A DNA stretch of 64,000 nt from Planococcus sp. MSAK28401. Lineage in GTDB: Bacteria; Bacillota; Bacilli; Bacillales_A; Planococcaceae. Each line of letters opens with the position of its first letter. The first letter of the stretch is position 1. The DNA lies in contig NZ_JAAMTH010000001.1 in NCBI RefSeq assembly GCF_018283455.1, positions 3,267,501 to 3,331,500 on the forward strand, read 5' to 3'. The notes under the pieces are model-generated. The model was not told the DNA's origin and made no database searches. It was given only the letters and a program-made list of their open reading frames with translations. A program made the position numbers and the translations under genes. Below are positions 5,858-48,214 of the stretch, in pieces.

Positions 5858-7930
5858 ATGGTGAATGATCAATCGCGGTATTCGAGGCTTGCGAACATCA
5901 CACGCATTGTCAATACGAAGCTGGATTTGCATGAAGTGCTGCAGCAGGTCACGACGGCAATTTCCGAGGAAATTGTCCGATGCGACTCTGTCGGAATCTT
6001 TTTGCCAGAAGGCGATGGCACATACCGCGGGTTTGCGGGAAAGCCGGAAATGATGAGCGGCGTGACATTGCAATCGCAAATTATCGATCCGAAAACAGAC
6101 AACCTGGCAGCGGAATTAATAGCGACACGGAAAACCATTTACATAGCGGATACCTCCACAGATAACCGGCCGGACTTGAAGCCAGTGGGAGCTTTTCAAA
6201 TCAGCTCCCTATTGGCGCTGCCGATTTCCTACGAAACGGATTTTATGGGGATGGTGTTCCTGTTCGATTACGGCACGCCGATGAATTTGACGCAATCAGA
6301 AATTGAAAGCGTCGAAGCGTACGTAAATATGGCGGCAGTGGCGATACAAAACGCGAAGACCCTCAACCAAAAAGAGAAGTTGTTGACGGAAAAGCAATTG
6401 CTGCTCGACCTTAGCCGTGAACTGTCTTTCTGTTCGACGATCCAAGAAAGCCTGAATGTTTGCTTTGCCTATTTGAAACGGGCGTTTGGTGATGGGAATT
6501 TTGCGGCACACATCATAAAGCCGCCGAGTGGTAAAGGCGGCGCGCCGGTCCAATTTCACGCAGCTGATGGAAGGGCCGAACAGGACTGGCAAGAATCTCT
6601 CGCCACCATGGGGTTACCCACAAATTACCCGGAATTTGTGACACATGCTGTCTCACAAAAAGAGCCTATCCGGACGGACATGGGCGCTCATCACGAATTG
6701 CTGCTGCTTCCAATGATTGCTATGGGAAAAGTTGACGGCGTTGTCTCAGCCGTATGCAGCTGCGAAGCGTCAGAAAATGCCATTGATCTTCAGATTCCTT
6801 TCGCCCAAGCGATTATTGAGGCCACCGCGCCGGTTTTTTCGAATTTATTGTACATGGATCAATTGGAAGGAATGGTCGAAGAGCGGACAAGTGAACTGTA
6901 TGCTGCGAACAAGCGGGTCACGAGTGTCATTGAAAGTATCACGGACGGATTTTTCGTGCTAAATAAAAACTGGGAATACACCTATATCAACCAGCATCAT
7001 TTTTTGCCGAAAGGGAAAAAAGTGGATGAAGTGCTCGGCAAGAAGGTTTGGGATGTGTTTCCTGAAACTGTCAACACCCTCACTTACACCGAGTTCCATC
7101 GAGCCATGAACGACCGGGTGACGGTTCGCTTTGAGACACAATCGGATGTGGAAGATTTTTGGTTTGAAGTTACCGCCTATCCATTCGATGACGGCATCTG
7201 CTGCATGTTGAAAAACATCAAAGAAAAGAAAAAATACGAGAAAGAGCTGAAAAGGCTCGCCAATTTGGATTTGATCGGCCAGATGGCGGCAGGGATCAGC
7301 CACGAGATCCGCAATCCAATGACGACAGTGCGCGGTTTCCTGCAATTGATGTTGATGAACGAGCAATTGGAGCCGCATGCTGCGCATTTCAACCTGATGA
7401 TCGCTGAATTGGACCGCGCAAATGCCATCATCACTGAATTTCTGTCCGTTGGCAATACGCGGACTTCGGATATGAAAATGATGAGCTTAAACGCCATCAT
7501 CGAGGATATCTCACCGTTGATCAAAATCGATACAGCCAACCAGAACAAACAAATCCATATTTATACCCAGGAAGTGCCGGAACTACTACTGAACCATAAT
7601 GAAATCCGGCAATTGATCATCAATCTATACCGCAATGGGCTGGAAGCAATGGAAGAAGGGCAGACACTGACCATCGGGACCTATCCGGAAAACGAAAATT
7701 GCGTGGTGCTGGCCGTACAGGATCAGGGCAGCGGCATCGATCCCGCCATCATCGATAAAATCGGCACGCCTTTCTATACGACAAAAGATGAAGGCACGGG
7801 CCTCGGCCTGGGTATCTGTTACGCCGTGGCGGCTCGCCATAATGCCACAATTACCATCGAAACAGGACCCGAAGGCACCATCTTCTTCACGAAGTTTCCA
7901 GTTGAGCCAAAACCAGACGAAGAGCAATGA
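5858..7930 (+). CDS. GAF-GAF-PAS sensor histidine kinase
   Basis: A 690-residue cytoplasmic kinase without membrane segments. In order: GAF (about 20-165), a second GAF-like region (about 175-335), PAS (about 355-460, beginning SVIESITDGFFVLN), HisKA with the phospho-acceptor His482 in SHEIRNP, and HATPase_c (about 575-685) with DQGSGID and GTGLGLG motifs. The ATG at 5858 has GGAG seven bases upstream. No response regulator is adjacent, which is common for soluble Bacillales kinases feeding a phosphorelay such as Spo0F; that target is inference. It is a single-gene unit with its own terminator. Confidence 0.9.
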   Translation: MVNDQSRYSRLANITRIVNTKLDLHEVLQQVTTAISEEIVRCDSVGIFLPEGDGTYRGFAGKPEMMSGVTLQSQIIDPKTDNLAAELIATRKTIYIADTSTDNRPDLKPVGAFQISSLLALPISYETDFMGMVFLFDYGTPMNLTQSEIESVEAYVNMAAVAIQNAKTLNQKEKLLTEKQLLLDLSRELSFCSTIQESLNVCFAYLKRAFGDGNFAAHIIKPPSGKGGAPVQFHAADGRAEQDWQESLATMGLPTNYPEFVTHAVSQKEPIRTDMGAHHELLLLPMIAMGKVDGVVSAVCSCEASENAIDLQIPFAQAIIEATAPVFSNLLYMDQLEGMVEERTSELYAANKRVTSVIESITDGFFVLNKNWEYTYINQHHFLPKGKKVDEVLGKKVWDVFPETVNTLTYTEFHRAMNDRVTVRFETQSDVEDFWFEVTAYPFDDGICCMLKNIKEKKKYEKELKRLANLDLIGQMAAGISHEIRNPMTTVRGFLQLMLMNEQLEPHAAHFNLMIAELDRANAIITEFLSVGNTRTSDMKMMSLNAIIEDISPLIKIDTANQNKQIHIYTQEVPELLLNHNEIRQLIINLYRNGLEAMEEGQTLTIGTYPENENCVVLAVQDQGSGIDPAIIDKIGTPFYTTKDEGTGLGLGICYAVAARHNATITIETGPEGTIFFTKFPVEPKPDEEQ

Positions 7931-11259: not shown

Positions 11260-12534
11260 TCATATCTGATCATCGGCCAGCCTGAAGCCGCCAAACTGCC
11301 AACGTTTATCCGGCGGAAAGAAATTGCGGTAAGTCGAACGAATATGGCTAGCGGGAGTGGCACAAGATCCGCCTCTTAAAATCATTTGATTGCTCATAAA
11401 TTTCGCATTGTACTCTCCAAGCGCCCCTTCTAGCGGCTTGCTTCCGGGATAAGAAGCATAGGCACTCGATGTCCATTCCCATACGTCCCCAAACATTTTC
11501 GCTAGTGTTGCTTCGTTCATTTCGCCGCGGGCAGCTGACGGATGGTAAAGTTCCTGTTCCATCGTATTGCCTTCAATGGCGATTCCTTGAGATGCATGCT
11601 CCCATTCAGCCTCAGTCGGCAGTCTTTTGCCTTTCCATCTGCTAAAAGCGTCTGCTTCATAAAAACTCACATGGCTGACGGGTTCATGGGGATTCAAGTT
11701 CTTTACTCCGCCAAGCGTGAAGATGCTCCACGCACCTTGCTCGTTTTTCAACCAATACAACGGCGCTTTCCAATTGTTCTTCTTCACAACTCCCCAGCCA
11801 TCCGAGAGCCAGTGTTCCGGCTGTTCATAGCCGCCTGCTTCGATAAACTCCAGATATTCTCCATTGGTTACAGGCTCTGTTGCCAATTGGAACGGTTCAA
11901 GCCAAACCTTATGGCGGGGGCTTTCGTTATCAAACGCAAATCCTTCCCCTTGGTGGCCAATCTCGACCAATCCGCCTTCAAACTCCACAAATGCCGCTGG
12001 TTTTCGTTCACTCGCCTGCGGTTCCGCTGATTTTAAATAGGTCGGAAACAACGGATTCACAAAAAAGTTGTACTTCACGTCCATCAGTATTAACTCTTGG
12101 TGCTGCTGTTCATGTTGCAGCCCCATATGAATCAATTGAGCCAGCTTTTTCTGAACATCTGAAGACTCGGTTTCGGAAAGCAATTCATGAATTTGCCCGT
12201 CTACATAATGGCGATAGGCGATGATTTCCCCAACAGTGGGCCTTGAGAGCACACCGCGTTCATGGCGAGGCTGGTATGGCCCGATGGTGTTGTAATACGA
12301 ATTGAACAAAAAATCGAACTCGGCATTAAACTCTTCATACGCGGGTTTGAATTCCTTTAAAATCATGCGCTCAAAAAACCAAGTTGTATGGGCAATATGC
12401 CATTTGGGCGGACTGACATCCGCATTGGATTGAATAATGAAGTCTTCTGGTTCCAGTGGCTCGATGAGTTCCATGGTGACTTTCCTAATTTCGGTGTAGC
12501 GGTCCAGTAAAGTCGCTTTATCCAACGTTTCCAT
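11260..12534 (-). CDS. egtB: EgtB-like non-heme iron sulfoxide synthase
   Basis: A 424-residue protein with a DinB-like N-terminal domain and a C-terminal formylglycine-generating-enzyme-type sulfatase-modifying domain (about 185-420), the EgtB/OvoA layout. The iron triad is visible: His49 in KWHIAHTTWFFE and the HX3HXE motif at His141-His145-Glu147. EgtB joins hercynine to a cysteine-type thiol using oxygen in ergothioneine synthesis. No EgtD methyltransferase is adjacent. The ATG at 12534 follows GAGGGAG; a GTG at 12552 overlaps that site. It lies 64 bases downstream of a betaine-type binding-protein gene on the same strand. Substrate choice cannot be settled from sequence. Confidence 0.85.
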   Translation of the reverse strand: METLDKATLLDRYTEIRKVTMELIEPLEPEDFIIQSNADVSPPKWHIAHTTWFFERMILKEFKPAYEEFNAEFDFLFNSYYNTIGPYQPRHERGVLSRPTVGEIIAYRHYVDGQIHELLSETESSDVQKKLAQLIHMGLQHEQQHQELILMDVKYNFFVNPLFPTYLKSAEPQASERKPAAFVEFEGGLVEIGHQGEGFAFDNESPRHKVWLEPFQLATEPVTNGEYLEFIEAGGYEQPEHWLSDGWGVVKKNNWKAPLYWLKNEQGAWSIFTLGGVKNLNPHEPVSHVSFYEADAFSRWKGKRLPTEAEWEHASQGIAIEGNTMEQELYHPSAARGEMNEATLAKMFGDVWEWTSSAYASYPGSKPLEGALGEYNAKFMSNQMILRGGSCATPASHIRSTYRNFFPPDKRWQFGGFRLADDQI

Positions 12535-37696: not shown

Positions 37697-38612
37697 TTTG
37701 GTCCGGTCAGCAGCTGCAGCGTATGGACTGCAGAATTTCCAGATTGAAAAAGATTATTACGTATCCCTGCTTCTGAAGCAACTGGTCTACATCTTCCCTG
37801 GCGTTGTATTTAAGGGCGGAACGTCACTCTCGAAGTGCTACGATGTCATCAAGCGTTTTTCGGAGGACTTGGATCTGAGCGTTCCGCTTGGAGAGAGCAA
37901 TAAGCTACCAAGAAGCGATAAAAGGAAATTGAAAATCGCGATTGAATCTGTAATTGAGGACCTCGGATTTATACTGTTAAATCCTGACGAAATCCGATCA
38001 GGTCGGGAATTCAATGAGTACGAAATTGCCTATCGTAAAGCATTTAAAGGCGACGACGAGATGTCCCCTCACATTCTTGTGGAAACGAATGTCGCCTATA
38101 AACCCTTTCCATTCGAACAGCTTGGGGTAAGCAATTACATCACGAAGTTCGTTATGGCTGCAGAAGGCGACGCAACGGAAAAAGAACGGTTTTTGGATGA
38201 ATATGAGATGAGACCATTTGCGGTGAATGTGCAGACAATTGACCGGACGTTTCTTGATAAAATTTTTGCCATCTGCGATTATTACGAAAAAAAAGAAAGC
38301 ACTCGCTATTCAAGGCACTTATACGATCTTCATATGATTTGGAGAAGTGGATTCGTCGATGCAGCAGGATTGAAACTGCTGATTTCTGAGGTGATCGAGA
38401 TTCGAAGAGATGGTCGGGACACGGCTTCCTGTCAGCCTGGTTATGAATTAAAAAACACATTGAACGAAATCATTCGTACCGCTTTCTATAAGCAGGACTA
38501 TAACCGCAATACGAAAACGTTCCTGGCAGAAGATGTGTCTTATGATGAAACCATCAATAGCCTGAAAAAAATTATCGATAGCGACTTTTTACCAACTGTC
38601 ATCAAAATCTAA
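37659..38612 (+). CDS. abiEii: AbiEii-type nucleotidyltransferase toxin
   Basis: A 317-residue protein of the AbiEii/AbiGii toxin family with the nucleotidyltransferase signature VFKGGTSLSKCYDVIKRFSEDLDL (GGTSLSK, then D-x-D). It uses NTPs to modify a cellular target, in known cases tRNA acceptor ends, and aborts phage infection when the antitoxin fails. The last codon is ATC and the stop TAA uses two bases of the inverted repeat of the following IS, so the IS defines its C terminus. The length is normal for the family, so few residues can be lost. Confidence 0.85.
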   Translation: MMRLHEENELFNDLVRSAAAAYGLQNFQIEKDYYVSLLLKQLVYIFPGVVFKGGTSLSKCYDVIKRFSEDLDLSVPLGESNKLPRSDKRKLKIAIESVIEDLGFILLNPDEIRSGREFNEYEIAYRKAFKGDDEMSPHILVETNVAYKPFPFEQLGVSNYITKFVMAAEGDATEKERFLDEYEMRPFAVNVQTIDRTFLDKIFAICDYYEKKESTRYSRHLYDLHMIWRSGFVDAAGLKLLISEVIEIRRDGRDTASCQPGYELKNTLNEIIRTAFYKQDYNRNTKTFLAEDVSYDETINSLKKIIDSDFLPTVIKI

Positions 38613-40395
38613 ACGGGGCTGTCCCATAAGCCCCTAAAATAAAGCAGACGGAGAAAAAGAATTTCTTTTTCTCCGTCTGTTTTTCATTTATTGGTGAGGT
38701 CACTGAAAGTAGCCGGCGCATGCCGGCTACTTTCAGGAGGTTGTGGGCCAATGCCACAATCCCGAACTCTGTATGCACTTTCTCTAAGCCCCGGAGGAGA
38801 AATCGGCGGAACGACCGATTGCCCTTGATATGACCGAACACACTTTCTACGTCAATTTTGCGTTGGGCGTAGATTTGTGTCTTCGTTTCATCTTCAAGAG
38901 CTGCTTTGGCCTTCGCTTTCATTTCTTCATAAATGGGATTCCATTGGACTTGTCGGTTGCCTTTTGCTTTCGTGCAGAGGGCTTTTAACGGACAATCCGA
39001 ACAGTCTTCGCATTCATAGATTTTTAAGTTTTGTTCGTAACCGGAGGCATTCTTTTTATTCAGGTATTTTTTAAATGCGACACGCCGACCATTCGGACAG
39101 ATGAAACAATCTTCCTCCTCTAGGTATGTCCAATTTTTCGCGTGTTTGATATTCTTCTTGTAACTCGCTGATTTTTCCTTCAGATACATTCCATATGGAA
39201 TGAGAAAGTCGAAATGCGGCTCTTTTTCATCGCCCAACGCATACAGGTAATTCTCTTCACTGCCATAGCCTGCATCGGCAATGACCGTCTTCGGCATGGG
39301 CAGGCTGGAAGCCGCTAGTTTCTCCAGATGCGGAAGAAAACAGCGCGTGTCCGTTGGTCGCTGATGTATCGAATAATAAAGAATGAACTGATTTTCTGTG
39401 GCCATTTGTACATTATAAGCTGCTTTCAATTGACCATTTTTCATGTGATCATCTTTCATTCGCATAAAGGTCGCATCCGGGTCTGTTTTCGAAAAGCTGT
39501 TTCGATCACCGAAGATCTCGTGGTACTGACTATATTTCTCCAGACGCGGAAGGAAATCTTCGCGAATCGCTTTGACCGGCTTTTTCCACTCACTGCGCTT
39601 GGACCGGAGTTGCTTTCGTTTTTCGGTATCGTCTTCCAGATCAAGGGCTTCCGTGAATGCGTCAATCTGTTCTTCCATGGCTTCCGCCATTTCTTCCAGC
39701 TGTTCAGGCGTTGCTTCTTCTACCTGTTCGTTGAGTGGAATCGCTTCAGCTGCGGCCAGTTCATGGATATGCTGAATCGTTTCGGCAATCTTTACCTTCA
39801 ACTTGCCTTCGAAATTCTGTGTCGCTTTTTTCCAGACGAATGAATACTTATTGGCATCAGCTTCAATTTTGGTGCCATCCAAAAAATAATGCTCCATAGT
39901 GATGTAGTTCTGTTCGATCAGCTGGTGAATCATCTGTTCAAAAAGGGAGTCCATCATCGCTTTTAAGTGGTCCGAACGGAACCGGTTAATCGTTCGGTGA
40001 TCTGGTTGTTGGCCAGCTGCGAGCCACATGGACGGAATGTGTTCAGTAAGTGTTTCTTCAATACCTCGAGAAGAATAGATTTTCTTCGAATAAGCGTAAA
40101 GGATAACTTTGGTCATCATCTTTGGATGGAAAGAGCTTCTTCCGCCGCCTTTATAGTGCGCGAAAAACAGCTCATCATCAATCAATTCCACCATTTCGTC
40201 GATGACCCGGGCGACATGGTTGGCTGGCACAAGATCTTGTATATCAAAGATGGCAAAGCCTTGTTGGTTGTTATAGGGAATGAACGTAGGACTCGCTTTT
40301 TTGGATAGCGGAACGCCAGTTCCTTCTCCCAGAGCGAGTGGAAATGCGGCTTGTTCAGTGTTATAATTTGAGGAAGTAATCTTCGGATTGCACAT
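38602..40395 (-). CDS. IS1182-family transposase
   Basis: A 597-residue DDE transposase: DUF772 N-terminal domain (FHPKMMTKVILYAYSKKIYSSRGIE), first Asp in YFLDGTKIEADANKYSF, second in VIADAGYGSEENY, a Cys-rich linker (CEDCSDCPLKALC) and the Glu region QRKIDVESVFGHIKGN. The frame runs through the left end of the element and stops at TGA (38602-38604) in flanking DNA, so its C terminus depends on the insertion site. GAAAGGACG lies near the ATG. Confidence 0.92.
   Translation of the reverse strand: MCNPKITSSNYNTEQAAFPLALGEGTGVPLSKKASPTFIPYNNQQGFAIFDIQDLVPANHVARVIDEMVELIDDELFFAHYKGGGRSSFHPKMMTKVILYAYSKKIYSSRGIEETLTEHIPSMWLAAGQQPDHRTINRFRSDHLKAMMDSLFEQMIHQLIEQNYITMEHYFLDGTKIEADANKYSFVWKKATQNFEGKLKVKIAETIQHIHELAAAEAIPLNEQVEEATPEQLEEMAEAMEEQIDAFTEALDLEDDTEKRKQLRSKRSEWKKPVKAIREDFLPRLEKYSQYHEIFGDRNSFSKTDPDATFMRMKDDHMKNGQLKAAYNVQMATENQFILYYSIHQRPTDTRCFLPHLEKLAASSLPMPKTVIADAGYGSEENYLYALGDEKEPHFDFLIPYGMYLKEKSASYKKNIKHAKNWTYLEEEDCFICPNGRRVAFKKYLNKKNASGYEQNLKIYECEDCSDCPLKALCTKAKGNRQVQWNPIYEEMKAKAKAALEDETKTQIYAQRKIDVESVFGHIKGNRSFRRFLLRGLEKVHTEFGIVALAHNLLKVAGMRRLLSVTSPINEKQTEKKKFFFSVCFILGAYGTAPFRF
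38645..38679. terminator. Hairpin inside the IS1182-type left end
   Basis: CAGACGGAGAAAAAG and CTTTTTCTCCGTCTG pair, followed by TTTTT on the plus strand. It lies within the transposase C-terminal coding region and can stop read-through from abiEii. Confidence 0.75.
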
Positions 40396-40906: not shown

Positions 40907-41929
40907 TTATGATTCTTCTTCAAGTAAATTTTCAAATATTAAATCTAAATCTGGTAACTCTTCTATTAGCTCCCTTTCCAACATCCAATCTGCAACGTTC
41001 TTCCAGTCTTCCTTACTTTGGCTGCCAAACCCTTCATCCGCTTTCATTCTTGGTAGCAAGATCGCCATACTTTCGTCTTCAACCTCTTTTGCTAAAGGGA
41101 AGTTAGCCTCATCTTGATTCTTCAGCAATAATTCCACTGCTTCCGTCGGATGTTCAGCCATCCATTCATACCCTTTCGATGCCGCTTTCCAAAAAGCGCG
41201 GATCTCTTCTTCTTTCCCTTCCCAGTTTTCATCGTTCGTCACGAGCACTAACTCATAATAAGGAGGAACACCATACTTCTCTGGATTCAATGTTTTTGTT
41301 TCAACTCCTTTACTGGCAAGTAAAGGTACCTCATGGTTTATATATGCACCTACAACTGCATCCACTTTTTCGCTCACCAAGGAAGATCCAAGCTCGAAAC
41401 CAACATCAATCATTTCCACTTTTTCCGGATTCCCTCCATCCTCGCTTACCATTGTTTTAATCAACGCTTCATTAAGAGGGATTCCAGGGTAGCCTACCTT
41501 CATCCCTTCTAAATCTGCAGGGCTCTCCATTTCACTATTCTCCAACATCACCACGTGATTTAAAGGCGATCGAACGATGGCTGCTACTGATTTAATGTTT
41601 ATGCCTTGATTTGCTCTCGCTGTGATTACGTCGGGCTGATAGGTGATTCCCAATGTCATCTGCCCAGATGCCACCATGTTAATCGGATCTGTTGGATTAG
41701 TTGGGAAATGAAGATTTACATCCAATCCCTGCTCTTCAAAGAAGCCTTTTTCCTCGGCTACATATAGGTAACTATGGACTGCGTTTGGATACCAGTCGAG
41801 CATCAGATCTATTTGTGCATTTTCTTCCTTTGCTTCCCCGCTTTCACTCCCGCATCCGCTCAGAATTATGCTAATTCCGAAAAGCGCACCTATAAATATA
41901 CTGTTCAATCGTTTGTTCCTGTATATCAT
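40907..41929 (-). CDS. thiY: ThiY, formylaminopyrimidine-binding lipoprotein
   Basis: A 340-residue NMT1/THI5-like lipoprotein: signal with lipobox LSGC (about 23-26), then IDLMLDWYPNAVHSYLYVAEEKGFFEEQGLDV and VGYPGIPLNEALIK. It binds N-formyl-4-amino-5-aminomethyl-2-methylpyrimidine for ThiXZ. The ATG at 41929 now directly follows an IS256-type insertion and has no ribosome-binding site in the IS end. Before insertion this ATG overlapped the thiX stop (ATGA). Expression is therefore probably reduced. Confidence 0.88.
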   Translation of the reverse strand: MIYRNKRLNSIFIGALFGISIILSGCGSESGEAKEENAQIDLMLDWYPNAVHSYLYVAEEKGFFEEQGLDVNLHFPTNPTDPINMVASGQMTLGITYQPDVITARANQGINIKSVAAIVRSPLNHVVMLENSEMESPADLEGMKVGYPGIPLNEALIKTMVSEDGGNPEKVEMIDVGFELGSSLVSEKVDAVVGAYINHEVPLLASKGVETKTLNPEKYGVPPYYELVLVTNDENWEGKEEEIRAFWKAASKGYEWMAEHPTEAVELLLKNQDEANFPLAKEVEDESMAILLPRMKADEGFGSQSKEDWKNVADWMLERELIEELPDLDLIFENLLEEES

Positions 41930-41932
41930 GTT

Positions 41933-43273
41933 GAGACCGTCAATAATTATGTGTAAATAAGTAAATCCTTTTCTTGTATGTATATCGATTAGGTTTGCTT
42001 GAACATCTCAGTCAGCTCTGCACGAGCTTGATCGAATCCGATATGGCAACGGGTGGAGAAGTTCTGGTTATAGATTTCGAACTGGGAAACCAGGAAGCGA
42101 TCCAAGGAATCTTCGTTCGGAAATTGCTCCTTGCGCTTGCTGTATTTCTTTACGTTCTTGTTGAACGATTCGATCAGGTTCGTTGAATAGATGCTTCGCC
42201 AAATGGATTTTGGGAAGCTGTAGAAAGTGAAAATATAGGGATTCGCTTCCAACGATTTCGCCACTTTGGGATAGGCCGTTTTCCATTTGTCGACAAAGGC
42301 TTTCAACGCTTTTTCACCCAGTTCTTGGTTCTCTGCCCGGTAGACCGATTTGAAATCATCCAGAATCTCCTTGCGATCGGTAACGCGAACTTTGTGGCGG
42401 ATCCCACGCGACAAGTGGACGCAGCACGCCTGATATTGAGCATCGGGAAAGACCGCGAAGATGCGATCAGTGATGCCTTTTAAGCCGTCGGAGATAAACA
42501 AAAGCACCTCTTCGACACCGCGCTCTTTCAAGTCCAACAGGACTTCTTCCCAAACAAATGCGGATTCCGTAGGTGCCACTGTATAGGCCAAGACTTCTTT
42601 TGAGCCGTCCTCTCGGATGCCAATCGTAATATAGACGGCTTCCTTCGAGACCGTGTCGCGCTTGAGGGCAATGTAAGTTGCATCCAGATAGACACACGCG
42701 TAACGCTGTTCTAACGGACGAGATTTAAACGCCTCGACCTGTTCGCTCATGACTTTCGTCATATTGGAAATGGTTTGTGGCGTGTAATGATGGCCGTACA
42801 TTTTCTCGATCAGGTCCGAAATCTCGGACATGGTCACGCCTTTTTGAAACATGTGAATAACGAAGGCTTCCAGCGTATCGTTTGAGCGCTTGTACGGAGC
42901 GACCGTCTGTTGGTTGAATTCGCCGTTCCGGTCCCGTGGCATCGAAAGCTCTAAATCCCCATACTCCGTATGGAGTGTCCGCGTGTAGACACCATTGCGT
43001 GAGTTGCCGGAATTAAACCCGATGCGGTCGTATTTTTCGTAATCCAGGAACGCTGTTAGTTCCGTTTGAAGAAGTGTATTCACCGCCGTCTCCAAATGTT
43101 TGCGAAAAACTTCGGAGATGTCTTCTTTTTTTACTAGAGCTTGCATAATATCTGTTGTAAACTGAGTCATAGGGAAGGCCTCTTTTCTGTGAATTGGTTG
43201 TGGTGACTTAATTCTACAAGAAAAGGTCTTCCTTTTTCTATTTATTCATTTACACAAGATATTTTACGCTCTC
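41933..43273 (-). mobile_element. IS256-family insertion sequence in thiXY
   Basis: A 1341-base element with inverted ends beginning GAGA: left GAGACCGTCAATAATTATG, right read inward GAGAGCGTAAAATATCTTG, both continuing into TGTGTAAAT. An 8-base target duplication ATCATGTT flanks it (41925-41932 and 43274-43281). It sits exactly on the overlapping thiX stop and thiY start. Confidence 0.95.
41989..43170 (-). CDS. IS256-family (mutator-type) transposase
   Basis: A 393-residue transposase: LELSMPRDRNGEF and LYG-like KMYGHHYTPQTISNMT in the N-terminal half, first Asp in CVYLDATYIALKRD, second in LLFISDGLKGI, C/H motif CCVHLSRG and the final Glu in STNLIESFNKNVKK. All catalytic residues are present, so it may be active. 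AAAGAGGCC lies before the ATG. It is read in the same direction as the thiamine genes. Confidence 0.94.
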   Translation of the reverse strand: MTQFTTDIMQALVKKEDISEVFRKHLETAVNTLLQTELTAFLDYEKYDRIGFNSGNSRNGVYTRTLHTEYGDLELSMPRDRNGEFNQQTVAPYKRSNDTLEAFVIHMFQKGVTMSEISDLIEKMYGHHYTPQTISNMTKVMSEQVEAFKSRPLEQRYACVYLDATYIALKRDTVSKEAVYITIGIREDGSKEVLAYTVAPTESAFVWEEVLLDLKERGVEEVLLFISDGLKGITDRIFAVFPDAQYQACCVHLSRGIRHKVRVTDRKEILDDFKSVYRAENQELGEKALKAFVDKWKTAYPKVAKSLEANPYIFTFYSFPKSIWRSIYSTNLIESFNKNVKKYSKRKEQFPNEDSLDRFLVSQFEIYNQNFSTRCHIGFDQARAELTEMFKQT

Positions 43274-43274
43274 A

Positions 43275-44033
43275 TCATGTTTCATTCCCCCATTTTAATA
43301 GCCATTTTTCTAATACAACAACTAATACAAATAACAATATCCCTGTTAACGAGAGCAATACAATCGGGGCGAATACACCTGCGCCGTCAAACTGCGTCAT
43401 CATTCTTCGACTGAAATAACCGAGCCCTTGCTGGGCGCCAAGCCACTCTCCTATTGCGGCTCCAATGACGCTAAGGGTTACTGCCACTCTTAACCCCGAA
43501 AAAAAAGAAGGCAGCGCAGATGGTATCGACAGCTTTAGAAAAATCTCTTTTTTCGTTGCGCCCATAGTCAACATTAATTCCCGAAGTTCTTTGCTTGCAG
43601 AGTTTAAACCATCAAATGTATTGACGGTGATGGGGAAAAAAGTTATTAATACCGTAACTGCCACTTTACTCCACATCGTATAGCCAAACCATAAAACAAA
43701 AATAGGGGCTAGAGCGATGATTGGAATTGTCTGAGATGCGATTAGCAAGGGATAAAAAGCGCGTTCAGCCGTTTTATTCCAAAACATCCAAGAAGCCAGT
43801 CCTACACCGAGCAATACTGAAAGAATAAGCCCCACTACAATAATTGAAACTGTCGCCGGCATATGCACGAGAAGCAGTGTTTCCCTTAGCTCCCAAAGCC
43901 GCACACCCACTTGTATAGGCGAAGGAAGAACAAAGGCGCGGTCTATGGTTTTTGCAATAAATTCCCAAGTCAATAGAAATAATAGAAAGACGCCCATAGA
44001 CAGTAAGTAATATTGTTCAATGAACCGTTTCAT
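43275..44033 (-). CDS. thiX: ThiX, thiamine-precursor ABC permease
   Basis: A 252-residue permease with six membrane segments and the EAA-like loop (LNSASKELRELMLTMGATKKEIFLKLSIPSALPSFFSGLR). With ThiZ and ThiY it imports formylaminopyrimidine. The stop TGA (43275-43277) lies inside the duplicated target ATCATGTT of the IS256-type element, so its coding sequence is intact. It lies 15 bases after thiZ. Confidence 0.9.
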   Translation of the reverse strand: MKRFIEQYYLLSMGVFLLFLLTWEFIAKTIDRAFVLPSPIQVGVRLWELRETLLLVHMPATVSIIVVGLILSVLLGVGLASWMFWNKTAERAFYPLLIASQTIPIIALAPIFVLWFGYTMWSKVAVTVLITFFPITVNTFDGLNSASKELRELMLTMGATKKEIFLKLSIPSALPSFFSGLRVAVTLSVIGAAIGEWLGAQQGLGYFSRRMMTQFDGAGVFAPIVLLSLTGILLFVLVVVLEKWLLKWGNET

Positions 44034-44048
44034 AACATTTTAGCCCGC

Positions 44049-44828
44049 TCACTTGATTCTTTTATCAAAAATTTCACCTTCCTTGCGAAATTGCTGAATC
44101 AACTCCCTTTTGGCTGAAAGAAGAGATGAATCGTTCATGACATCCTCCATCGTTCTAGGTCTGCTAAGGGAGATCTGCACTTCTTTCAATTTTGTCATCG
44201 GCGGAAGGGTAGTAACAAAAATACGGTCTGACATAAGCAATGCTTCATCCAGATCGTGCGTAATCAAAATGATAGTCTTCTTCAATAATTTCCATTGTTC
44301 CAATAACCATTCTTGCATGGCTAATCTGGAAATCGCATCAAGTGCACTGAAGGGTTCATCAAGCAGCAAAATATCTGCTCCAGTTAAGTAGGCCCGCATA
44401 AAGGAGACCCTTTGCTTCATTCCGCCCGAAAGCATACTCGGAAATAACGTTTCTGTTCCGTCTAATCCAAATGAAACAAAAAGAGGTGCAGCTTTTTTAT
44501 AAGCCTCTTTCTTATGAATCCCCTTTAGTTCTAGCGGCAGAATGACATTATCAATAATGGTGCGCCAAGGTATTAGAAGGTCTTTTTGCGGCACATAACC
44601 TATGTTTCCATCGCGTAATTTAATGGCCTGACCCCTGAGGAGCAAATCCCCCTTAGTTGGTTCTTCCAACCCCAACAGCAATCTGAATAATGTCGTTTTC
44701 CCTGACCCACTTGGACCGACCACACTTATAAACTCTTGGTTTTGAATCGAAAAAGACAAATCTTTAAAAATTTCTTCTTTCCCATAATGAAAATTTAAGT
44801 TATTGACTTCCAACAACGCCTTACTCAC
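44049..44828 (-). CDS. thiZ: ThiZ, thiamine-precursor ABC ATPase
   Basis: A 259-residue ATPase of the nitrate/taurine/thiamine-precursor group: Walker A GPSGSGKTTL (about 39-48), Q-loop GYVPQKDLLIPWRT, signature LSGGMKQRVSFMRA, Walker B ILLLDEPFSALD, His switch LITHDLDEA. The GTG start at 44828 overlaps the end of tenA by eight bases. It energises ThiX. Confidence 0.92.
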   Translation of the reverse strand: MSKALLEVNNLNFHYGKEEIFKDLSFSIQNQEFISVVGPSGSGKTTLFRLLLGLEEPTKGDLLLRGQAIKLRDGNIGYVPQKDLLIPWRTIIDNVILPLELKGIHKKEAYKKAAPLFVSFGLDGTETLFPSMLSGGMKQRVSFMRAYLTGADILLLDEPFSALDAISRLAMQEWLLEQWKLLKKTIILITHDLDEALLMSDRIFVTTLPPMTKLKEVQISLSRPRTMEDVMNDSSLLSAKRELIQQFRKEGEIFDKRIK

Positions 44829-45495
44829 TTACAGGCCACATCGTTTTGTGATAAGCCATATCCCAAAATAAATATTCAAACCTCGTAGTAGTCAAAAAGA
44901 TTTCTTCAAGCTTTACTAGTTCATTTTCTGGTTTGCCGGCCGTCAATTCGTCCAGCAAATCGATGCACCACTGCGCTGTTTGGCCAAACTCCTCTGAACT
45001 ATACATTCGGATCCACTCACCATATAGTGGGTGATCGGCTGCACCTGGAATGGCCGCAAGCTCTCTGCCGATTTCACGGTAACTCCATGTACATGGAAGC
45101 AATGCTGCTACCAATTCACTTACACTGCCGCTCTGTCCCACGTGAAGCATATAATGGGTATAAGCAAGTGTCACAGGGGAGGGGGATGCTTCCTCCAGTT
45201 CCTTTGCGCTAATCCCAAAACGTTCCGCATACTGGCGGTGCAATGCCATCTCTTCGTTCATAGTGGCATCCAGTAACTTGGCAAATTGTCCCATTGTTTT
45301 AACATCCTGTGACTTGGTGGCACCAATCGCAAACAACTTTGCATACTCGATTAAGTAAAGATAATCTTGAACCATGAAGAACCGAAACTTTTCTTTATCA
45401 AGAGACCCCTTCCCCATTTCGACTACAAAAGGGTGATTATGGTTGTTTCTCCAAATGGGTTGAAGGGTTGTATGTAATTTTTCGCTAAATTTCAC
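44821..45495 (-). CDS. tenA: TenA aminopyrimidine aminohydrolase
   Basis: A 224-residue TenA/Thi-4 protein. It hydrolyses 4-amino-5-aminomethyl-2-methylpyrimidine to HMP. Family marks include HPFVVEMGKGSLDKEKFRFFMVQDYLYLIEYAK, the active-site Cys in LLPCTWSYREIG and EFGQTAQWCIDLLDE with a conserved Glu near the end. The GTG start follows GGAG by eight bases. Placement between ylmB and thiZ fits a salvage unit. Confidence 0.94.
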   Translation of the reverse strand: MKFSEKLHTTLQPIWRNNHNHPFVVEMGKGSLDKEKFRFFMVQDYLYLIEYAKLFAIGATKSQDVKTMGQFAKLLDATMNEEMALHRQYAERFGISAKELEEASPSPVTLAYTHYMLHVGQSGSVSELVAALLPCTWSYREIGRELAAIPGAADHPLYGEWIRMYSSEEFGQTAQWCIDLLDELTAGKPENELVKLEEIFLTTTRFEYLFWDMAYHKTMWPVSE

Positions 45496-45507: not shown

Positions 45508-46797
45508 TCACTCTGCCTGCTTTTTCGTATGGCACCAAGTAAAAATAAAATACGCCATAACTTTAGAGAAATTCACCAATTCTTGTATCTCAATGGACTC
45601 GTGAACGCTATGGGCTTCTATCAACTGCCCCGGTCCATATACGACTGTCGGGATGCCTGCTTCCGCAAGCCACCCGCCATCGGTAACAGTCGCGGACACA
45701 CCAATAACAGCCTTTTCTGAAAATAAATGTTGGTGTGAAGCTGCTAAAGTCTTTACGCCTGTATGTTCCGGATTCACTTCAAAAGCTGGAAAGACCTCGC
45801 CTCTATCTTCTATCATTGAATGCCCACCCCATATAAAAGTGGGTGGATGTTCTTTTAGCCAAGAATCCGCTTTTGCAGCATTTAAAAGATGTTCTTCAAT
45901 TTCTTTGCTTACAGTTTCATAGGACTCATTCGGATAAAAATGTACGGTGATCCAGAGCCGGCACTCGTCCGCGATAAAAGCGGCATGCCTTCCTCCTTCA
46001 ATCACAGCCGGATTAATCGTATTTGTTCCTGGAGGATAACCCGGATAGCTTTTTGAAACCGCCCAATGACGCTCTAACTTCTGCAGACTTTCAATGATAA
46101 TCATCATTTTTTCAATAGCGCTTGCTCCTTGCGAAAGACCGCCACCTGCGTGAATCATCTGCCTGCGCATGGCATCATGATAAACTTTCGGATCTTTAAT
46201 GACCACCCAACCGGTGATCACCCCGCCCTGCCCTTGGATCTGCAGATCACTTGTATCAACTACAACCGCAAAATCCGCCTGGTAGCCCCTTTCGCAACAC
46301 TGCAGGGTGCCAGCTTCACCAACCTCTTCTCCTATAACTGATTGAAAAATAAGGTCGCCCGGCAATTCGATGCCTTGTTCATGAAAAAGTTTAAGGACAA
46401 ATAACGCAGCAGCCATCCCTCCCTTCATATCGGCAACACCTCGGCCTATAATTCGATCGTTTACAACTTCCGCCGTGAAGGGATCCGTTTTCCATACTTC
46501 TTCCGGCCTCACTTCGGCCACATCAATATGTCCATTGATGATCAAGCTTTGAAAAGACTTTCTTTCAGTCCCTTTTTTCACACCAACGATGTTTGGATCT
46601 CCCGGATACACATCCCATCGATCTGTTGCAAATGCTTGGCTTACTAAATACTGTTCAATCCACCCTTGTGCTTCAGCTGTGTTGCGAGCAGGCGGTGCCG
46701 GAGTTTGAAAAGAGATAAGTTGTTTAGTAAGATCAATCAATTCATCTTTTTTTAACTCGATTTCTTTGATTACTTGAAGCAACTGATTGTTTTGCAA
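45508..46797 (-). CDS. ylmB: YlmB-like formylaminopyrimidine deformylase (M20 family)
   Basis: A 429-residue M20 amidohydrolase with zinc-site motifs INGHIDVAEVRPEEVWKTDPF, GRGVADMKGGMAA and SVIGEEVGEAGT. It removes formate from the imported pyrimidine before TenA acts. The frame is open to an ATG at 46854, but that codon is part of the leader terminator hairpin. AAAGGAG precedes a TTG at 46797, taken as start. It heads the ylmB-tenA-thiZXY unit under a TPP riboswitch. Confidence 0.88.
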   Translation of the reverse strand: MQNNQLLQVIKEIELKKDELIDLTKQLISFQTPAPPARNTAEAQGWIEQYLVSQAFATDRWDVYPGDPNIVGVKKGTERKSFQSLIINGHIDVAEVRPEEVWKTDPFTAEVVNDRIIGRGVADMKGGMAAALFVLKLFHEQGIELPGDLIFQSVIGEEVGEAGTLQCCERGYQADFAVVVDTSDLQIQGQGGVITGWVVIKDPKVYHDAMRRQMIHAGGGLSQGASAIEKMMIIIESLQKLERHWAVSKSYPGYPPGTNTINPAVIEGGRHAAFIADECRLWITVHFYPNESYETVSKEIEEHLLNAAKADSWLKEHPPTFIWGGHSMIEDRGEVFPAFEVNPEHTGVKTLAASHQHLFSEKAVIGVSATVTDGGWLAEAGIPTVVYGPGQLIEAHSVHESIEIQELVNFSKVMAYFIFTWCHTKKQAE

Positions 46798-46832
46798 GAA
46801 GTTTAATTCTCCTTTCGATATGATTTCCTCCA

Positions 46833-46868
46833 CAAAAAAACACTTCTTTCCCATAGGAAAGAAGTGTA
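46833..46868 (-). terminator. Leader terminator of the TPP riboswitch (ylmB unit)
   Basis: CACTTCTTTCC and GGAAAGAAGTG pair around four bases with seven T after it on the minus strand. It is the OFF state of the riboswitch upstream. Confidence 0.9.
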
Positions 46869-46917
46869 AATGACTATAAAAGGTTAAGCCTCATGTGGAG
46901 ACAAAATTCTTCTGCCA

Positions 46918-47003
46918 TCTCTTCCCTCCGCTAGTATTAACTAGATCAGGTGAATAAGGGTCAAGACGAATGTCTTTCTCAGCTTTAAACAGCTCCCCTA
47001 GAG
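46918..47003 (-). ncRNA. TPP riboswitch upstream of ylmB
   Basis: On the minus strand: CTAGGGGAGC, CTGAGA, GACCCTT, ACCTGATCTAGTTAATACT and AGCGGAGGGAAG, the conserved THI-box blocks in order. It controls the ylmB-tenA-thiZXY unit by transcription termination at 46833-46868. Confidence 0.97.
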
Positions 47004-47383
47004 CAATTGTGCAATGAAGTTTTATTGTTACTTTAGTTCTATCATAAGGATTAAATAATTACAACCGGTCACTTCACTCTACTGTCATTATTTATATGAG
47101 ACAAGAAACTGTAACAATAAATCGAACCGAATCCGCTGCGCTTTCATTTTATAAAAGCTATCACTTTAAACTCGATGTATTGTAGTTTGTTTTTTCTTTT
47201 GCACATTTTGTATTTTATAATTGACTTATATACACAAAAGCACTTTCTAATTTAAAGTTCCATTTCGAACTTTCATTATTATTTCTCCTTAAATATATTG
47301 GCTAAAAGTGAAGATTGCTGACTAATTTTAAAAATAAAGGCGCTCGTAAAAGGAGATGGAAGCGTTTGAGCTTCGGTACCCCT
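47004..47383. other. AT-rich gap without a recognised gene
   Basis: Holds the promoter side of the riboswitch-controlled unit. A weak P2-like head (GCTCGTAAAAG) occurs near 47342. Nothing else is supported. Confidence 0.4.
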
Positions 47384-47440: not shown

Positions 47441-48214
47441 TCAATTACAAATTTGATCTGTCGCAGCTGTACAGCCGACACTGCCTATCAAAGCACAGAC
47501 AGCCGCTAAGCCTAAACCGCCAATCCCGGTAGTGATTCCCAGAGCACCCGCTGCAGCATAACACAACACGCCTCCACCGGTACCGCACAGAGCCCCAACT
47601 GCATATTCACAAAAAGAAGCATAAGCTCCAAATTCGTCTGCGTTCTTTCCAGCCTGCTGAATCTTATGTTCTGCAGAAGCGACAAAATCATCGTGGCTAA
47701 GCATCAAACCCTTTTCGTCAAAAATCGTCCCTGCTGTATCGACGGTAATGTCGTAAATTTCGGTTTGATTCCCGTCCAAGTTATAGAAGGCATTGATGCG
47801 TATTTTTCCTTGGTCTATATTTTCTGCATAGACCGCTTGATTCGTCAGTATATCCCCATTTTTTACATCATATGTGAATTGAACGTATGCGAGGTTATCA
47901 CTTGTTTTCGCAAGTCCTCCAAACACGAATTCAATATATGCAATATCGCCTTTGGAACCATCTACTGTGTTGATAATTATGTCACCTTTTGAAATTGAGT
48001 TAATTTTGGTGTTCTCTTTGTATGCCTGATACTCTTCTGTATTTTTTAACGCATTTCTGATTTGATTAAACTCATTTTGCTCGACATTCGATGTTCCTTT
48101 TTCAAACATTGAAGTTTCAGCATTGACAGCACCTACGGAACTAAATGCAGAAGAGACAATGAGAATAGCTGCTATTGCTAGCATCAGAACTTTTTCAAAA
48201 GGTTTGATTGACAT
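47441..48214 (-). CDS. Halocin C8-like bacteriocin precursor
   Basis: A 257-residue exported protein: signal peptide (about 1-32, ending VNAETS), a large soluble middle domain (35-200), and a C-terminal Cys/Gly/Ala-rich domain (about 203-257) with six Cys spaced like halocin C8 peptides (CEYAVGALCGTGGGVLCYAA, then AVCALIGSVGCTAATDQIC). In halocin C8 the C-terminal part is the toxin and the N-terminal part gives immunity; the same is likely here but inferred. A 32-residue membrane peptide gene lies 14 bases upstream. It sits between the two thiamine units and breaks their continuity. Confidence 0.65.
   Translation of the reverse strand: MSIKPFEKVLMLAIAAILIVSSAFSSVGAVNAETSMFEKGTSNVEQNEFNQIRNALKNTEEYQAYKENTKINSISKGDIIINTVDGSKGDIAYIEFVFGGLAKTSDNLAYVQFTYDVKNGDILTNQAVYAENIDQGKIRINAFYNLDGNQTEIYDITVDTAGTIFDEKGLMLSHDDFVASAEHKIQQAGKNADEFGAYASFCEYAVGALCGTGGGVLCYAAAGALGITTGIGGLGLAAVCALIGSVGCTAATDQICN

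Follow-up and report, generated by a model that had tools for sequence, protein, structure and literature searches.

The thiXYZ-tenA-ylmB genes form the formylaminopyrimidine salvage operon of Bacillus-type bacteria. Insertion sequences of the IS256 family show a reported preference for A/T-rich targets, and for ISCth4 and IS256 a circle-junction promoter has been described, with its -35 and -10 halves located in the two ends of the element (PMC7780238). In E. faecalis, experiments have shown that the first start site of the IS256 transposase has an antisense RNA (PMC10266640). Termination-reinitiation between neighboring genes requires an overlap or a very short spacing, and in E. coli and H. 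volcanii coupling is nearly lost once the genes lie about 20 nt apart (PMC10666635).

The window studied here, i.e. the whole 64,000-nt stretch of DNA analysed, contains such a salvage operon in the order deacylase-tenA-thiZ-thiX-thiY after a TPP riboswitch, which is the gene set of a thiXYZ-tenA-ylmB operon. Its features are:

46906-47009, minus strand: TPP riboswitch heading the operon, found in the window
45508-46854, minus strand: M20 ArgE/DapE-type deacylase, ylmB-like (profile match)
44821-45495, minus strand: tenA, thiaminase II (TIGR04306)
44049-44828, minus strand: thiZ-like ATPase (profile match)
43275-44033, minus strand: thiX-like permease, the end of which carried the thiY ribosome site (GGGGG) (profile match)
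40907-41929, minus strand: thiY-like lipoprotein with an NMT1/THI5 domain (profile match), whose gene no longer has a Shine-Dalgarno site

The listed ATG of the deacylase falls in the riboswitch terminator, and its true start probably lies downstream. Domain and neighbors give ThiY its name, and binding of formylaminopyrimidine is putative. A Halocin C8 precursor-like protein (47441-48214, minus strand; NF040679, 291 bits with a cut-off of 200) is encoded between the two TPP-switched operons of the window.

The thiX-thiY junction is split by an insertion sequence, the parts of which are as follows:

43274-43281: target-site duplication, thiX-side copy, containing the thiX stop (ATCATGTT)
41933-43273, minus strand: IS256-family element of 1341 bp, co-oriented with the operon (end and copy comparison)
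43240-43273, minus strand: left terminal inverted repeat (IRL); its TAAAAT is the -10 half of a circle-junction promoter (comparison with PMC7780238)
41989-43170, minus strand: IS256-family transposase of 393 aa, the sole ORF of the element (profile match)
41933-41966, minus strand: right terminal inverted repeat (IRR); its TTGACG at 41938-41943 is the -35 half, to which thiY adds no -10
41925-41932: target-site duplication, thiY-side copy (ATCATGTT)

The element boundaries were read in the window by comparing the two ends. The 8-bp direct repeats flanking the element read AACATGAT on the coding (minus) strand and enclose both the thiX stop (…GAA ACA TGA, stop at 43277-43275) and the thiY start (ATG ATA, from 41929), leaving both coding sequences whole at a present spacing of 1345 nt. 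When the element was removed in silico, the empty site …AAATGGGGGAATGAAACATGATATACAGG with an ATGA overlap was obtained. A preliminary description of this DNA had placed an IS256-type element exactly on the thiX/thiY overlap, with a duplication holding both codons and an ATGA overlap before insertion. The coordinates proved correct to the base, the transposase matches the family and both codons lie in the repeat; the observation is real and all its structural claims hold.

The transposase scores 380 bits against NF033543 (IS256; cut-off 150 bits) and 387 bits against PF00872 in the profile search. A single ORF lies between imperfect terminal repeats (GAGAGCGTAAAATATCTTGTGTAAATGAATAAAT / GAGACCGTCAATAATTATGTGTAAATAAGTAAAT), as in the IS256 family. 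The genome carries nine near-identical full-length copies and one partial copy of 76% identity, and perfect 8-bp duplications flank seven of the nine. Two other copies (L002 and L003) are identical to the window copy over 1341 bp, so the insertion is recent. Some other species of this genus carry copies of 94-99% identity, and relatives on Priestia plasmids, about 73% identical in DNA, are annotated as ISBame1. In a circle junction of 5-6 bp, the half-promoters TTGACG and TAAAAT would stand 17-18 nt apart. The element is a known kind of insertion sequence and the insertion is ordinary.

Three further observations concern insertion sequences in this genome. Two full-length copies, L008 and the above-mentioned identical copy L002, have no matching 8-bp duplications, which suggests recombination or a deletion at one side. 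The 84.7-kb contig C10 (G000:C10) holds two 26-bp exact copies of the element end only (L011 at 11810-11835 and L012 at 6652-6677), which are possibly remnants or MITE-like ends. Downstream of thiY, an IS1182-family transposase is encoded at 38602-40395 (minus strand), and thiY now lies between two insertion sequences.

The exact position could be mechanistic if the element sought out stop/start overlaps or translation starts. Its placement fits that idea: a crude ORF count, in which some overlaps are probably spurious, gives about 8 stop/start overlaps per 64 kb, and a crude estimate puts a duplication enclosing a whole overlap at roughly 4e-4 per random insertion. Among 14 duplications (those of the window copy and related copies), however, no motif is shared and none of the 13 others contains ATGA, several copies lie within ORFs or between genes, and only a general A/T preference is seen (71% A+T in the 14 duplications versus 60% in the window), in line with the 8-9 bp, A/T-rich duplications without strict motif of IS256 elements. 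We therefore give overlap targeting almost no credence. The position is also unremarkable given that nine copies and many genomes were scanned, and the exact landing on the overlap looks like chance. Selection for an insertion that lowers ThiY alone while keeping the deacylase, TenA, ThiZ and ThiX would account for the sparing of all other operon genes; yet no benefit is in evidence, the case concerns one genome and other recent copies are scattered in it, which makes selection highly improbable.

We searched relatives for the uninterrupted junction, as the preliminary description had proposed. Among 35 other genomes of the genus, only G024 contains a clear thiY orthologue (77%); the remainder show a paralogue of 31-33%, matches weaker than that or no match, so the operon is accessory in the genus. 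In G024 (L015), the nearest relative that has the operon, the junction reads AAGTGGAGGAATGCGAAATGAAACAG, with an uninterrupted ATGA overlap and GGAGG within the thiX end, where Shine-Dalgarno pairing amounts to -9.3 kcal/mol. Relatives lacking the overlap had been named as evidence that would refute the earlier reading. The closest relatives do overlap (ATGA in L015 and L020, TTGA in Metabacillus, L044), whereas in the more distant L016, L018, L019 and L021 thiX and thiY are separated without overlap.

The consequences for thiY follow from the loss of its upstream region. The predicted duplex with the 16S rRNA tail at thiY changes from -8.8 kcal/mol in the empty site to -3.9 kcal/mol after insertion, with a mean of -3.8 kcal/mol for random 20-mers from the window, and the predicted ribosome site has been shifted 1.35 kb away. 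These energies agree with the earlier claim that thiY lost its upstream site, now about 1.3 kb distant, and has no ribosome-binding site in the IS end. A strong outward promoter in that end could have countered the claim, but a promoter scan of the minus strand facing thiY found no outward promoter at all. A hybrid promoter at the IS tip was likewise rejected: no -10 lies 16-18 nt from TTGACG, and AGGAAC stands at 17 nt.

We consider it probable that an active IS256-family element recently transposed by chance into the thiX-thiY overlap of this TPP-riboswitch salvage operon, with the 8-bp duplication keeping the stop and start codons and hence both proteins fully encoded. The insertion cut thiY off from the Shine-Dalgarno stretch in the thiX end, and termination-reinitiation coupling would be lost as well, judging from distance limits that come from other species (E. 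coli and H. volcanii). Transcription of thiY by read-through is likely, since the element is co-oriented and contains no obvious terminator, and little ThiY would be translated; a strong reduction of thiY translation is the most likely outcome.

Nearly neutral effects would be expected if thiY were still adequately expressed, through read-through or IS transcription combined either with Shine-Dalgarno-independent initiation at its ATG or with a start at the TTG of codon 8. The start region has become more accessible (opening cost of 3.9 kcal/mol after versus 7.5 kcal/mol before insertion), so that some Shine-Dalgarno-independent initiation at the ATG may occur. The co-oriented element, the AGGA upstream of TTG codon 8 (-4.3 kcal/mol) and the intact thiY ORF point the same way. 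Against this, Shine-Dalgarno pairing does not exceed background, no promoter matches, and a start at TTG codon 8 would drop the positively charged start of the signal peptide; the identical copies indicate a recent insertion, after which an intact ORF is weak evidence. Adequate expression thus appears unlikely to us, and reduced translation remains the preferred reading.

The insertion at this position would be tolerated since ThiY alone is hit and there are other routes of uptake. ThiC (PF01964) was found neither in the window genome nor in any of the 46 genomes searched in the genus; 13 of 14 control genomes gave a match. Consequently, the pyrimidine must be salvaged or made another way, or thiamin imported, and salvaged pyrimidine matters. 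The window also contains a TPP-switched thiazole operon (tenI-thiO-thiG-thiF). Seven TPP riboswitches occur in the genome, and the other TPP-switched loci, most of whose names were read from sequence instead of profile searches, comprise tenA-thiM-thiD-thiE-thiW-like genes, a second thiY-thiX-thiZ ABC set, a ThiT-like gene and YkoEDCF-like (YkoFEDC-like) genes. The second thiY-type transporter and the YkoEDCF-like set may buffer the loss of this operon's ThiY. At separate loci (L093, G000:C1:2882500-2890500; L136-L145), a lipoate-ligase/LipM-like gene with lipA behind it is preceded, at about 90 nt, by a TPP riboswitch (78 bits) and its following terminator; the riboswitch is present upstream of 10 of the 20 orthologues scanned, all in the same genus.

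The leader of the element contains a further candidate feature:

43170-43240, plus strand: predicted antisense RNA across the transposase start, a stem-loop followed by a T run (structure and covariation)

The arms of the leader inverted repeat co-vary among relatives (GGAAGACC/GGTCTTCC, GGAAGTCC/GGACTTCC, GGGAATGCC/GGCATTCCC and GGAATAAATC/GATTTATTCC). Own-arm duplexes average -19.5 kcal/mol versus -6.7 kcal/mol when shuffled, and in most of the distant relatives own arms gain 4-10 kcal/mol over foreign arms; the window's own arms, in which one sense-strand pair is an A-C mismatch, show no gain. RNAalifold returned no consensus structure for the gapped leader alignment, and the covariation claim is based on own-versus-foreign duplex energies. 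A sense-strand hairpin shielding the transposase start from read-through is the less preferred interpretation, because in most homologues the fold of the antisense strand is the better one (summed -662 versus -561 kcal/mol) and has more G-U pairs, a T run follows its stem, and nearly all Rfam hits fall on it. The leader repeat best fits a stem-loop RNA running antisense to the start of the transposase. The window scores 25.7 bits for RF02592 (Spy392987) and 24.2 bits for RF02847 (Ref64), below the gathering thresholds of 47 and 44.3, and the homologue IS905 (L125) scores 75.3 bits for RF02592 on the antisense strand; the leader looks like these antisense RNAs, and we do not assign it to either family. 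A literature search on these Rfam sRNA names found nothing relevant.

The co-orientation of the element inside a TPP-riboswitch operon places the transposase downstream of a thiamin-starvation signal. Read-through could then raise transposition at low TPP, with the convergent antisense RNA as a buffer and thiY output depending on transcription through the element, a scheme we hold to be very doubtful.

The locus offers a clean natural experiment on translational coupling, in which nothing but the stop/start overlap and the ribosome site has been pulled apart, with both coding sequences whole. It also suggests a possible way to lower one vitamin-precursor transporter subunit alone, in an organism without ThiC.

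Compared with known systems, the operon resembles the Bacillus-type thiXYZ-tenA-ylmB operon in gene content, tenA and deacylase neighbors and TPP riboswitch, but differs in its split thiX-thiY junction. The element shares its transposase, single ORF, imperfect inverted repeats and 8-bp A/T-rich duplications with the IS256 family (ISBame1, ISEf1, ISLgar5, IS1310, IS905 and ISCth4), whereas its DNA is about 73% identical to the ISBame1-type copies of Priestia. Its TTGACG/TAAAAT half-promoters are like those in the ISCth4 ends (PMC7780238), and they are the feature seen here of a putative circular intermediate (copy-out/paste-in). The leader RNA, which would cover the ribosome site and start of the transposase in antisense, is comparable to the site-1 antisense RNA of IS256 in E. 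faecalis (PMC10266640) and to IS10 RNA-OUT, although in contrast to these it is predicted from structure and covariation.
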